A stretch of DNA of 35,255 nucleotides. Source: Candidatus Dormiibacterota bacterium (GTDB lineage: Bacteria > Chloroflexota > Dormibacteria > Aeolococcales > Aeolococcaceae). Below are positions 8,726 through 12,938 of the stretch, piece after piece. The position numbers and the translations under genes were made by a program. The notes under the pieces were generated by a model. That model was not told the origin of the DNA. It saw only the letters and a program-made list of their open reading frames with translations, and did no database searches. The stretch covers positions 1 through 35,255 of the forward strand of contig DASXNK010000144.1 in the NCBI GenBank assembly GCA_036495095.1. Reading direction: 5' to 3'. How positions within the stretch are numbered: position 1 is the stretch's first letter; each line of letters begins with the position of its first letter.

Positions 8726-8753
8726 ACCCGGGGAGGCCACGCCTCCCCCGGGT
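8726..8753. terminator. Hairpin at the convergent ends of the regulator and dehydrogenase genes
   Basis: Arms 8726-8737 and 8741-8753 pair over 12 bp with one bulged base and a 3-nt loop. The hairpin touches the stop codon of the dehydrogenase (-) and lies about 55 nt after the regulator stop (+). No T-tract follows, so it is a candidate bidirectional terminator only. Confidence 0.45.
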
Positions 8754-10003
8754 CACGGATAGATGCCCCGTACCTCGGTGGCCCTCGCCACCCGGTCGAC
8801 CGCGACGCGGTAGGCGGCGTCGCGGAGGCTGATGCCGTGCTCGGCGGCGGTGCGGCCGACGTGGTCGTGGGCGCGGCGCATCACGTCCTCGAGGCGGCGC
8901 ATCACCTCGCGTTCCTCCCAGAAGAGCGCCTGCAGGTCCTGCACCCACTCGAAGTACGAGACCACCACGCCGCCGGCGCTGGCGAGGATGTCGGGGATCA
9001 CCACGATGCCGGCGGCGTCGAGCACGGGGTCGGCGTCGGGGGTGATGGCGGCGTTGGCGCCCTCGGCGATGAGACGGGCGCGCACCCGTCCGGCGTTGCC
9101 GGCATGGATCTGCGCCTGCACCGCGGCGGGGACGAGCACGTCGACCTCGAGCTCGAGCACGTCGGCGGGACCGATCACCTCGCCCGCGCCGCTCTCCGCG
9201 ACGCTGCCGCCGCCGCGCACGTGGGCGGCGAGCGCGGGCACGTCGAGGCCCTCGGGGCGGTGCACGCCGCCGCGACTGTCCGTGACCGCGATCACTCTGA
9301 GCCCCGCCTCGGCGAGGCTCAGCGCGCACTCCGCGCCCACGTGCCCGAAACCCTGGAGCGCCACCGACGCGCCCACCGGGTCGATGCCGAGCTCCTGGAG
9401 TGACCACAACGTGACCATCGTCAGCCCGCGGGCGATCGCGGAGTCGCGGCCCGCCGTGCCACCGATGTCGATCGGCTTGCCGGTGACCGCGGCGGGCACC
9501 GAGTAGCCGGCGTTCATGGAGATGGTGTCCATCATCCAGGCCATGATCTGCGGCGTCGTCCCCATGTCGGGCGCGGGGATGTCCTTCTCGGGACCGATGA
9601 GGAGCGCGATCTCGGTGGTGAAGCGGCGGGTCAGCCGCTCCAGCTCGCCGATGCTGAGCCGGCGGGGGTCGCAGATCACCCCGCCCTTGGCACCGCCGAA
9701 GGGGAGGTCGACGACCGCCGACTTCCAGGTCATCACCATCGCGAGAGCGCGGATGTCGTCGACGGTGAGCCACGGCGCGTAGAGGATGCCGCCCTTGGCC
9801 GGGCCCCGGACGATGTTGTGCTGCACCCGGAAACCGGTGAACACCGTGTGGCTGCCGTCGTCGAAGGCCACCGGGAAGTGGACGACGAGCTCGCGCTTGA
9901 TCTCGCGGAGCACCGCGCGGATGCCGCCGTCGAGCCCGAGAGCGGCGGCGGCGGCGTCGACGCGGCGCTGCGCGTCGGCGAAGGCGGAGGTGGTGGAGGC
10001 CAC
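8753..10003 (-). CDS. gdhA: Glu/Leu/Phe/Val dehydrogenase (probable glutamate dehydrogenase)
   Basis: The enzyme would catalyse NAD(P)-linked oxidative deamination of glutamate, or the reverse amination. It is 416 residues, the length of the hexameric small-subunit GDH family. Seen motifs are the substrate-binding GPAKGG (67-72) and Lys94, the catalytic Lys106 in PFGGAKGGV, Asp146 in PAPDMGT, and a Rossmann GFGHVG turn near residue 218. Leucine dehydrogenase is less likely at this length, but residue-level specificity cannot be fixed by eye. It starts 5 nt after the stop of the PhaR-like gene, so the two form an operon. Cofactor preference is not readable. Confidence 0.92.
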   Translation of the reverse strand: MASTTSAFADAQRRVDAAAAALGLDGGIRAVLREIKRELVVHFPVAFDDGSHTVFTGFRVQHNIVRGPAKGGILYAPWLTVDDIRALAMVMTWKSAVVDLPFGGAKGGVICDPRRLSIGELERLTRRFTTEIALLIGPEKDIPAPDMGTTPQIMAWMMDTISMNAGYSVPAAVTGKPIDIGGTAGRDSAIARGLTMVTLWSLQELGIDPVGASVALQGFGHVGAECALSLAEAGLRVIAVTDSRGGVHRPEGLDVPALAAHVRGGGSVAESGAGEVIGPADVLELEVDVLVPAAVQAQIHAGNAGRVRARLIAEGANAAITPDADPVLDAAGIVVIPDILASAGGVVVSYFEWVQDLQALFWEEREVMRRLEDVMRRAHDHVGRTAAEHGISLRDAAYRVAVDRVARATEVRGIYP

Positions 10004-10008
10004 AGCGC

Positions 10009-10536
10009 TCAGTCCCGGCCGCCGGGCGGCCGCGTGCGCGGCGACGTCTCGCCGAGGGCGGCGTCGAGCGCGTCGACGCGCGCGGCGAGCTCGTCCACCC
10101 GCCGTCCCAGCGCCTCGACCTCCTCGGCGGTGGCGATGTTCAGGTTGTGCAGGCCGGTGGTGACGACGTCGTCGACGCGGCTCTCGAGATGCTGGGTGGT
10201 GCTCGCCAGGCTGTCGGTGGCGCGCTGCCGGAGCTCGCGTGGCAGCGCCAGCGAGGCGCGCACCATGGCGATGAGCTGCTCGCCCCGCTCGCGCACCGCG
10301 TCGACGAGCAGGGGCTCGGGCTGCGGCCCCCGGCGCTGGCGCTCGAGGTCGAGCAGGATCTGGCTCAGGGTCACCGCGGTGATGTCCTCGCCGCTGGTCC
10401 GATCGACCACCCGGACGTCGTGGCCCTCGCGCAGCAGCTCGGCGATCACGTCCAGGGTCACGTAGCGGCGTGAGTGGGTGTCGTAGAGCTTGCGGTTGGC
10501 GTACTTCTTGATGACGTGCGTTTCCAGCGCCCGCAC
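10009..10536 (-). CDS. PhaR-like regulator fused to a phasin-like coiled coil
   Basis: Residues 8-62 match the PHB-accumulation regulator (PhaR) N-terminal domain: IKKYANRKLYDT...RYVTLDVIAELLREG..VRVVD..SGEDIT..TLSQI. In proteobacteria this domain binds DNA and PHA granules and represses phasin genes. The C-terminal part is helical, and NIATAEEVEALGRRVDELAARVDAL (about 133-157) resembles the PTxxExxALxRRVExL signature of phasins. It therefore looks like regulator and phasin-type coiled coil in one protein. The GTG start at 10536 is preceded by GGGGGAGG; a CTG three codons in, with GAGGAG before it, is an alternative. It heads an operon with the dehydrogenase and is divergent from the histone-like gene. 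Domain call is firm; a PHA role is inference because no PHA synthase is present. Confidence 0.82.
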   Translation of the reverse strand: MRALETHVIKKYANRKLYDTHSRRYVTLDVIAELLREGHDVRVVDRTSGEDITAVTLSQILLDLERQRRGPQPEPLLVDAVRERGEQLIAMVRASLALPRELRQRATDSLASTTQHLESRVDDVVTTGLHNLNIATAEEVEALGRRVDELAARVDALDAALGETSPRTRPPGGRD

Positions 10537-10558
10537 TCCTCTATTCGGGCCTCCCCCG

Positions 10559-10585
10559 ATCGGCGCCGACTATACGGGAGCCGAT
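10559..10585 (-). promoter_or_regulatory. -10 (TATAGT) of the PhaR-like operon inside a 6-bp inverted repeat
   Basis: TATAGT (10569-10574, minus strand) matches the -10 consensus at five of six positions and lies about 32 nt before the GTG start. It is flanked by atcggc (10559-10564) and gccgat (10580-10585), an inverted repeat that could be an operator, perhaps for self-repression. No good -35 is seen. Confidence 0.45.
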
Positions 10586-10802
10586 GGCCGTACGCCCATC
10601 CACCCGCTGTCGCAGCGCCCGCGCGACCCGGTGCGCCCGGTCCCGCGGTCCCGGCGCGCGGTCGCCGCTGTGCTCGCGGTGTGCACCGTCGCGACCTCGC
10701 GGCGCGCACAGGCAGACCCCCGAGACCGCCGGCCAGTCGTCACCGCGACGGTGTGCGCGCAGTCGCGGCGGCGCCGGCGCCGGCGGTCGGAAGCACCCTG
10801 GT

Positions 10803-10831
10803 TTGACATTGCTGTGTACATCGACCATGCT
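10803..10831 (+). promoter_or_regulatory. Sigma-70-type promoter of the histone-like gene
   Basis: A perfect TTGACA (10803-10808), a 17-nt spacer and CATGCT (10826-10831) lie about 100 nt upstream of the ATG. It is the best -35 in the window, standing out in AT content from its surroundings, and suggests strong expression. Confidence 0.6.
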
Positions 10832-10931
10832 ATGCGCGAACTGCACAGGGCAGCGTGTTTTCTCCACGTCCTGTCAGATACGCGAACCGTGGCGATCGCC
10901 TGACGATCGCACCATCGGAGGCCCAGCAAAC

Positions 10932-11774
10932 ATGGCGAGGACTAGACGGACGACGGGGGTACCCGCAACCGTCACGCGGACTGTGAAGCGCGTGACCGGG
11001 ACCACCCGCAGAAGCGCCCCCGGGGGTGACCTGGTGAAGGCGGTCCAGGGTCTGGTGAAGGCACTTCCCATCTCCGATCTCGACAAGCGTCTTGCCGCAC
11101 TCGAGAAATCGGTGCAGCGGCTCGAGAGCGAGATCCGCAAGGCGGTCGAGCGGATCGGTGGAGCGGTGCGCCGCGGCACCGGCGCCACCGCCACGACTGC
11201 ACGCCGCGCCACCACGACGACGGCGCGCCGGGCGACTGCGGGCACCACGCGGCGGACGACCACCGCTCGCGCCACCGGCACCCGCGCCACCGGCACCCGC
11301 GCCACCGGCACCCGTGCCACCGGCACCCGTGCCACCGGCACCCGCGCCACCGGCACCCGTGCGACCGGCACCCGTGCGACCGGCACCCGGGCGACCGGCA
11401 CCCGCGCGACCGGCACTCGCGCCACCAGCACCCGGGCGACCGGCACCCGCCGCACCACCGCCACCACGGCGGCGAAGCCGGCGGCCACCCGGCGCACCAC
11501 CACCCGGCGCGCCGCCGCCACCACCGCGACCGCCGCGCCGAAGCCGACCACCCGTCGCACCAGCACGCGGCGCGCCGCGGCCGCCACGGCGGCCGGGAGC
11601 ACCACGCCGGCGACGACCACGCGCCGCACCGGCACCCGCCGCGCCGCGGCCACCGCCACCGCGGCGAGCACCGCGCCGAAGCGCGCCACCACCCGCCGGG
11701 GCACCCGTCGCAGCGGCACCACCGCGGCGGCTCCGCTGCCCGCGGCGCCGACGGCACCCGCGACGACCTCCTGA
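10932..11774 (+). CDS. Histone-H1-like / PhaF-like basic repeat protein
   Basis: This 280-residue protein is Arg/Thr/Ala-rich and strongly basic. A short basic N-terminus is followed by a helical, coiled-coil-prone segment (about 33-77, SDLDKRLAALEKSVQRLESEI). Then come twelve ATGTR units (114-173; one is ATSTR) and a degenerate tail of TTRR, RRAAATTA and AAKPxxTRR stretches. The layout, a helical head plus a disordered cationic tail, recalls PhaF and AlgP, whose AAKP-type tails bind DNA, but Arg replaces Lys almost throughout. GGAGG lies 10 nt before the ATG. A nucleoid-associated role is inferred from composition. Facing a PhaR/phasin-like gene supports a PhaF-type role in granule-nucleoid attachment, but plain chromosome compaction is equally possible. 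Confidence 0.8.
   Translation: MARTRRTTGVPATVTRTVKRVTGTTRRSAPGGDLVKAVQGLVKALPISDLDKRLAALEKSVQRLESEIRKAVERIGGAVRRGTGATATTARRATTTTARRATAGTTRRTTTARATGTRATGTRATGTRATGTRATGTRATGTRATGTRATGTRATGTRATGTRATSTRATGTRRTTATTAAKPAATRRTTTRRAAATTATAAPKPTTRRTSTRRAAAATAAGSTTPATTTRRTGTRRAAATATAASTAPKRATTRRGTRRSGTTAAAPLPAAPTAPATTS
11271..11450 (+). repeat. Tandem 15-bp repeat, 12 copies (ATGTR units)
   Basis: Twelve consecutive copies of a 15-bp unit, consensus gccaccggcacccgc, run without interruption through 180 bp. Variation is mostly at third codon positions (c/t/g), so the array is recent enough to be in register yet not identical. Copy 11 encodes ATSTR. In-frame length means gain or loss of units keeps the protein open. 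Confidence 0.95.
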
Positions 11775-11858: not shown

Positions 11859-12938
11859 CTACCCCGCGGGGCGCGGACGTGCGGCGGCGCAGTCGCGCAG
11901 CACCGTCCGCAGCACCCTGCCGGCACGGCGCACCGCTCCGGCGTCGACGCCGAGATGGGTCATGCAGCGGAGCAGCTGAGGGTCCATCACCGAGGCGAGC
12001 ACGCCCTGGGCGGCGGCCCGTTCCGCCACCTCGACCGCCGCTGCCGCGGTCTCGAGCAGGACGATGTTCGTCGGCACCGCCGGGCGGATCACCCGCACCC
12101 CGGGGGCGTCGCTGAGCAGGTCGGCGAGCAGGCGGGCGTGAGCATGGTCCTCGGCGAGCCGGTCGACGTTGTGCTCGAGCGCGTGGAGTGCGGCGGCGGC
12201 GATGACCCCAGCCTGGCGCATCCCTCCGCCGAGCCGCTTGCGCCAGCGCCGGGCCTCGTCGACGGTCTCGACGGCGCCGGCCAGCGCCGAGCCCACCGGT
12301 GCGCCGAGGCCCTTGCTGAAGCAGACCGAGACGCTGTCGCAGTGCTCCACCAGGCTGGCCGCGGGGCAGTCGAGGGCGATCGCGGCGTTGAAGATGCGCG
12401 CTCCGTCGCAGTGCACCGCAATGCCGTGACGGTGGGCCGCCTCCGCCGCCTCGGCGACCGCGGAGGCGGGGACGGCGAGGCCGCCGCGACGGTTGTGGGT
12501 GTTCTCCAGGGCGAGCAGACGCGAGCGCGGGTGATGGATGTTGGGGAGGCGCACCGCGGCCTCCACCATCGCCGAGGTGGGCACCCCGCCGGAGGCCGCG
12601 ACGGTGCGCAGCTGCACTCCGGCGACCACCGCCGCGCCCGCCACCTCGTACACGACCAGGTGGGCCTCGGCGTCGCTGATCACCTCGTCGCCGGGGCGGG
12701 TCTGCGCCGCCACCGCACAGAGGTTGGCCATCGTGCCGCTGGGGACGTACAGGGCGGCGGCCTTGCCGAGCATCGCCGCGATGGTCTCCTCGAGGCGGCG
12801 CACGGTCGGGTCCTCGCCCCAGACGTCGTCGCCGACCTCCGCCTCCGCCATCGCCCGTCGCATCGCCCGGTCGGGGACGGTGAAGGTGTCGCTGCGGAGA
12901 TCGACGCGGCTCTCAGGCATGGGACGGAATAGTCTCAC
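11859..12938 (-). CDS. ltaE: L-threonine aldolase (PLP enzyme)
   Basis: The enzyme cleaves L-threonine or allo-threonine to glycine and acetaldehyde. It is up to 359 residues, near the family norm. Motifs are VDLRSDTFT (12-20), the DDVWGEDPT block (37-45), AEAHLVVYE (90-98), the cofactor-binding HCDGARIFNA (176-185), and the PLP lysine Lys209 in CFSKGLGAPVGS. The longest reading frame begins with GTG at 12938, 3 nt after the upstream cyclase stop. The ATG at 12920 (MPESRVDLRSDT) fits the family N-terminus as well, and neither has a strong ribosome site. It is the last gene of the group starting at 15627, which is an unexpected partner for a cyclase. Confidence 0.9.
   Translation of the reverse strand: MRLFRPMPESRVDLRSDTFTVPDRAMRRAMAEAEVGDDVWGEDPTVRRLEETIAAMLGKAAALYVPSGTMANLCAVAAQTRPGDEVISDAEAHLVVYEVAGAAVVAGVQLRTVAASGGVPTSAMVEAAVRLPNIHHPRSRLLALENTHNRRGGLAVPASAVAEAAEAAHRHGIAVHCDGARIFNAAIALDCPAASLVEHCDSVSVCFSKGLGAPVGSALAGAVETVDEARRWRKRLGGGMRQAGVIAAAALHALEHNVDRLAEDHAHARLLADLLSDAPGVRVIRPAVPTNIVLLETAAAAVEVAERAAAQGVLASVMDPQLLRCMTHLGVDAGAVRRAGRVLRTVLRDCAAARPRPAG

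Follow-up and report, generated by a model that had tools for sequence, protein, structure and literature searches.

We found that the window, by which we mean the whole stretch of 35,255 nucleotides analyzed, encodes a PhaR-type regulator back to back with a protein carrying a long cationic tail, and that this divergent pairing recurs in relatives of the same class, most of which have no PHA synthase detectable by profile search. Our preferred reading, to which we assign a probability of about one half, is that the two genes represent an inherited inclusion–nucleoid regulon of the class that is uncoupled from PHA, and that the regulatory link between them may have been lost in the window itself.

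The window corresponds to contig C144 of a genome (G000) of 4.4 Mb that is assembled into 216 contigs; the closest relatives bearing a name are soil genomes labeled 'Chloroflexi' or Dormibacterota. Here, we refer to the family of this genome as f1 and to a sister family of the same class as f4. The genomes compared are mostly metagenome assemblies, some of them incomplete (G001 and G002 are 68% and 67% complete, respectively, and G010 is 93% complete), and gene absences rest on profile searches. Because several loci from two collections belonged to the same genome, counts are given per distinct PhaR protein; because an iterated profile of the partner head drifted into PhaR C-termini, pair counts were taken from the seed-only profile.

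The locus and its two proteins

Both genes lie where the preliminary description of this DNA had placed them, within the following arrangement:

8753–10003 (−): glutamate dehydrogenase, downstream of phaR; syntenic in relatives
10009–10536 (−): regulator of the PhaR type with a C-terminal phasin-like helical fusion; 175 aa, starting at GTG
10066–10233 (−): phasin-like segment of the regulator, PF05597 positions 69–124, helical in the model (profile match, AlphaFold2)
10339–10515 (−): PHB_acc_N (PF07879) DNA-binding domain of the regulator, including the KKYANRKLYDT block (profile match, AlphaFold2)
10537–10931 (no strand): divergent intergenic region, 395 bp
10803–10834 (+): TTGACA-N17-CATGCTATG, the tail-gene promoter; shared by relatives that have no PhaR
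10917–10921 (+): ribosome-binding site of the tail gene, GGAGG
10932–11774 (+): cationic-tail protein, 280 aa; f1-wide ortholog
11025–11183 (+): helical head or short coiled coil of the tail protein, GGDLvKAVQGLVKALPisDLdKRLaaLEKSVqRLEsEirKA (profile, AlphaFold2)
11184–11771 (+): disordered Arg/Thr/Ala-rich tail (composition, AlphaFold2)
11268–11450 (+): tandem array of a 15-bp unit in 12.2 copies, encoding ATGTR repeats
11859–12938 (−): threonine-aldolase-like PLP enzyme; syntenic in relatives

The suggestion that a PhaR N-terminal domain and a phasin-like segment are merged in one protein proved right. PF07879 matched residues 8–66 of the regulator (E = 3.7e-25, 88.2 bits; cut-off 25), and PF05597 matched residues 102–157 (E = 1.7e-8, 35.0 bits; gathering cut-off 28.8), the latter being the sole PF05597 match in a whole-genome profile search of G000. 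Ten residues, K10, Y12, N14-R15-K16-L17-Y18, Y25, D51, and T53, were invariant in 48 sequences. Such PhaR–phasin fusions are not peculiar to the window but occur across several phyla.

PF05597 scored above its curated cut-off in all three f1 genomes with PhaR and in the f4 PhaR genomes tested, and known PhaR proteins bind PHB and are titrated by it (PMC12542648, PMC12849132). Both points speak against the possibility, unlikely in our estimation, that the C-terminal helices are a mere oligomerization coiled coil and that the protein binds DNA as an ordinary regulator without any surface for inclusions. What agrees with a simple coiled coil is that the PF05597 alignment is confined to the C-terminal part of the profile, that the regulator scored below the cut-off of TIGR01837 and reached 72.3 bits on the TIGR01848 equivalog (cut-off 109.45), and that its AlphaFold2 model (mean pLDDT 75; about 86–97 for residues 1–60) was of low confidence at residues 70–130. 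Profile and fold searches of the PDB with the regulator model returned coiled-coil or insignificant matches only.

The divergent protein also has the helical head and long cationic repeat tail previously attributed to it. The tail consists of 197 residues, including 37 Arg and 3 Lys, no Asp or Glu, and 68% Ala/Thr/Pro. AlphaFold2 (mean pLDDT 54) placed helices at residues 12–25, 32–44, and 47–109, with the best confidence around 51–80, followed by low-confidence coil and an unstructured tail; a short coiled coil followed by a disordered cationic tail was thus seen in both the sequence and the model. This positively charged tail should bind DNA. The K/R content was 20% in the window tail and 31–44% in most complete f1 tails, which carry repeats resembling AKRAT or KTTAR. 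At two f1 loci, L169 (from 3583) and L170 (from 5095), the tail protein contains AT-hook-like RKRGRPVGSGKK (an RKRGRP stretch). The window head matched no Pfam family, PF05597 included, in profile searches, and its hhalign comparisons with f4 heads and with the PhaR C-terminus were not significant (12% and 1%, respectively).

The tail gene starts at ATG 10932, preceded by GGAGG, and this start is kept in relatives; the upstream ATG at 10584 was rejected as a start. The strong TTGACA promoter reported for this gene held in part: the −35 element (10803–10808) is real and kept in nearly all f1 genomes, but the −10 element, CATGCT after a 17-nt spacer, departs from the sigma-70 consensus, and a promoter scan reported no promoter at the tail gene. 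Genomes that lack PhaR retain TTGACA-N17-CATGCTATG as well, and we therefore regard it as a promoter rather than a PhaR site. Another candidate, CTGCACAGGGCAG, lies upstream of the tail gene and resembles PhaR sites; we discarded it as an operator because it is not conserved in G010 and because the promoter block around it is conserved without PhaR.

Conservation of the pair

PhaR was present in 3 of the 25 f1 genomes checked (G000, G001, and G010) and stood back to back with the tail gene in all three. From f4, we collected 47 loci with 35 distinct PhaR proteins, and a divergent helical-head gene lay beside every one (35/35). The f4 partners nearly always end in a cationic Ala/Thr/Arg/Lys tail, which was clearly less cationic at L021, L022, and L064; the partner at L048 was read in part only. 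An hhalign comparison (93%, E = 4.4e-8) showed homology between their head and the C-terminal half of the PhaR fusions, and the f4 partner combines a phasin-like head and a cationic tail on one chain, with a phasin match below the Pfam cut-off. The f1 and f4 loci share their synteny, with an epimerase and glutamate dehydrogenase on one side and the aldolase on the other. Additionally, f1 and f4 PhaR were adjacent in a tree of 48 sequences with moderate support (92/69), a placement in keeping with vertical descent.

A profile search with the f1 head detected the tail gene in 31 of 32 f1 genomes, most of them without PhaR, and in these PhaR-free genomes the gene occupied the same locus, adjoining glutamate dehydrogenase. 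This family-wide occurrence, together with the promoter block that is kept without PhaR, indicates that the f1 tail gene is independent of PhaR. It also feeds the strongest rival explanation for the window, namely that the tail protein is a nucleoid-associated protein of the lineage, H1/AlgP-like and with an oligomerizing head, and that PhaR is an unrelated neighbor by inherited gene order. We take this explanation seriously, although we hold the odds to be against it. The glutamate dehydrogenase–aldolase locus is the same when PhaR is absent, conservation of the tail promoter does not depend on the presence of PhaR, no TRACGC-RNY-GCRTTA operator was found in the window, and AT-hook-like stretches occur in the tails of L169 and L170, all of which suit an independent nucleoid protein. 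Conversely, such a protein beside an unrelated neighbor would not lead one to expect the invariant f4 pairing with a PhaR-type palindrome between the genes, the phasin-like head of the f4 partner, or the fact that f1 PhaR, where present, is always beside the tail gene (3/3). Under our preferred reading of an inherited regulon, the window would have retained the proteins and their divergent order, while its tail protein, which has its own family-wide promoter and no recognizable operator, would probably be a largely independent nucleoid-associated protein.

A candidate operator in the sister family

The palindrome TRACGC-RNY-GCRTTA was found in 35 of the 35 distinct f4 intergenic regions (the last R being C in a few), where it directly overlaps a −10-like TTAgAAT/TTATAAT before phaR. 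Conservation was 0.96 in its arms but 0.48 in the 35 bases that precede it and 0.59 in the 20 that follow, and shuffling predicted 0.002 loci per set; since the f4 sequences are related, this conservation weighs less than independent cases would. Published PhaR sites include YTKNTGCRNYGCANMAR in R. eutropha (PMC12849132), CTGCNNNGCAG in R. sphaeroides (PMC12542648), and TG[N]TGC[N]3GCAA in H. seropedicae (PMC3206438), and their GC-N3-GC center is matched by the GC-RNY-GC center of the f4 palindrome. The same motif stands twice before phaR in the Acidobacteria locus L086 and, less perfectly, in L087.

Genome-wide, the motif occurs only a few times per f4 genome, and a reversed control pattern gave few hits. 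A recurrent second f4 site lies in the promoter of a protein of 149–199 aa with a short basic C-terminus (L120 999–1472, L124 1010–1549, L130 1564–2058, L132, and L141); these proteins have no Pfam match and are unannotated. This second operator target was not found in f1 by a search run without a positive control. Identical perfect palindromes, TAACGCGTCGCGTTA, occur at G010:C12:275226-275240 and G267:C7:637226-637240, in two different families and away from phaR.

In the window, allowing up to three mismatches, TRACGC-RNY-GCRTTA gave fewer matches than in shuffled sequences and none in the intergenic region; the equivalent search of the G010 region had the same outcome, and no such operator was found between the genes in G001. 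The earlier idea that a nucleoid-binding tail may sit on a separate partner of the regulator fits f4 well, with its homologous head and the palindrome between the genes; for the window, the searches turned up neither an operator nor demonstrable phasin similarity in the head.

The f4 arrangement is best explained as an inclusion–nucleoid regulon not tied to PHA. In such a regulon, the free regulator, with its PhaR DNA-binding domain and phasin-like helices, would sit on the operator; when inclusions are present, it would move to their hydrophobic surface, and repression would be released. The divergent partner, a helical protein with a cationic tail, would coat or bridge DNA, and in f4 its phasin-like head suggests that it probably coats or bridges the inclusion as well.

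PHA synthase and neutral-lipid genes

PhaR is known as a PHA-granule sensor. A classical PHA module, in which PhaR senses PHA and the tail protein acts as a PhaF tail sharing out PHA granules, has in its favor the PhaR-type and phasin domains and the association of PhaR with phaC in a draw of 301 genomes from the phylum (21 with both, odds ratio 8.2). The statement in the preliminary description that no PHA synthase is present is true of the window but not of the genome, since our whole-genome search detected two phaC genes on other contigs of G000, a class I-like gene beside a CoA ligase and a class II-like gene. These, too, would suit a PHA module, yet neither lies near the PhaR/tail pair. 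The class I-like PhaC (L006 4352–7279) has an Arg/Ala/Thr/Pro-rich C-terminal extension (TRTPARRTTRRRAA...).

Within the class, however, the distribution of phaC was contrary to what such a module would require. Profile searches detected phaC in 0 of the 17 f4 PhaR genomes, where the class III model gave only trace scores in three genomes (19.8–21.3 bits), nor was it found in G010, which has the pair and is 93% complete, or in G001, at 68% completeness. Among the seven f1 genomes with phaC, only G000 has PhaR. In the same draw from the phylum, phaC accompanied PhaR in 1 of 19 genomes inside the class and in 20 of 33 outside it (Fisher p = 8e-5). Additionally, sequence comparison did not identify the window head as a phasin. 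Because most relatives with the pair are without a detectable PHA enzyme, a PHA-granule link is probably not the explanation, and we judge a classical PHA module to be distinctly unlikely. Conserved pairing, phasin similarity at 10009–10536, and phaC in the genome, on which the preliminary description had staked its granule module, were all present; as a general function, the module was not supported, given the absence of detectable phaC from the f4 PhaR genomes and G010 and the occurrence of the f1 tail gene mostly without PhaR.

The inclusion need not consist of PHA, since most relatives with the pair are without a PHA synthase and many have WS/DGAT. WS/DGAT was present in G000 (two genes), G001, G010, and 11 of the 17 f4 PhaR genomes; this co-occurrence, counted among PhaR genomes only, is no more than a hint of a neutral-lipid link. 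Neither phaC nor WS/DGAT was detected in the remaining 6 of 17, so no single inclusion type fits all. We advance one more specific version tentatively, as possible but doubtful: PhaR of this class would have been rewired off PHA, such that the fusion, acting through TRACGC-RNY-GCRTTA, governs its own gene and those of phasin-like proteins with cationic tails, which in turn link an inclusion other than PHA, probably of neutral lipid, to the nucleoid. Since the PhaR pair occurs in 18 genomes without a detectable PHA synthase, members of this family may well be able to sense surfaces other than PHA, and an annotation as 'PhaR' alone does not mean PHA in this class. The genes, operator, and proteins form a testable set for asking how storage inclusions might be connected to the chromosome in slow-growing soil bacteria.

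Comparison with known systems

The regulator shares the PHB_acc_N domain with all its core residues with known PhaR proteins (R. eutropha, R. sphaeroides, S. meliloti AniA, and H. seropedicae PhbF), and the f4 palindrome likewise has the PhaR-type center and lies over a promoter, at genes for a phasin-like protein and PhaR. It differs from them in that the C-terminus of the fusion matches PF05597 instead of the usual PhaR C-terminal domain, in its TIGR01848 score (72 bits against the cut-off of 109), and in that the fusions of this class are mostly found in genomes without detectable phaC.

A precedent for an inclusion–nucleoid link is PhaF (PMC3574117), which in Pseudomonas putida combines a phasin, a leucine zipper, and a cationic DNA-binding tail. 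The window tail protein resembles it in that a short coiled coil leads into a long, disordered tail of cationic repeats, but it has no detectable PHA-binding phasin helix, its cationic residues are almost only Arg (in ATGTR repeats), and the phasin-like segment and cationic tail are split over two proteins in the window.

MLDSR/MLDS provides a precedent on lipid droplets (PMC5504291). In Rhodococcus jostii RHA1, a DNA-binding lipid-droplet protein is adjacent to a droplet-titrated regulator, and the window similarly has a regulator next to a cationic-tailed protein; by analogy, its regulator might also be drawn off DNA by an inclusion. The inclusion in that system is neutral lipid, for which G000 has its two WS/DGAT genes. 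There are also differences: MLDSR has an XRE-type HTH unrelated to PHB_acc_N, its genes form one operon whereas those of the window are divergent, and the window pair is not a member of that system. If the rewiring proposed above is true, the arrangement would be an independently evolved counterpart of the actinobacterial MLDSR/MLDS, built from the PhaR family.

AlgP and histone-H1-like bacterial nucleoid proteins share with the window protein a helical head, a low-complexity cationic tail, and presence regardless of PHA genes. Unlike these, the window head is family-specific, belongs to no Pfam family, and in some genomes is encoded beside a PhaR-type gene.

Related genes are also arranged in other ways. 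In Acidobacteria, L087 7980–8672 and L101 7980–8672 each encode a PhaR–phasin fusion with a Lys-rich tail on one chain, with a phasin-like gene downstream; from its sequence, this protein is a natural fusion of the three putative functions that are split in the window. In other Chloroflexota (L010, L023, L028–L037, L066, L099, L110, L112, and L114), a phasin-like gene immediately precedes phaR in the same orientation, in place of a divergent tail gene.
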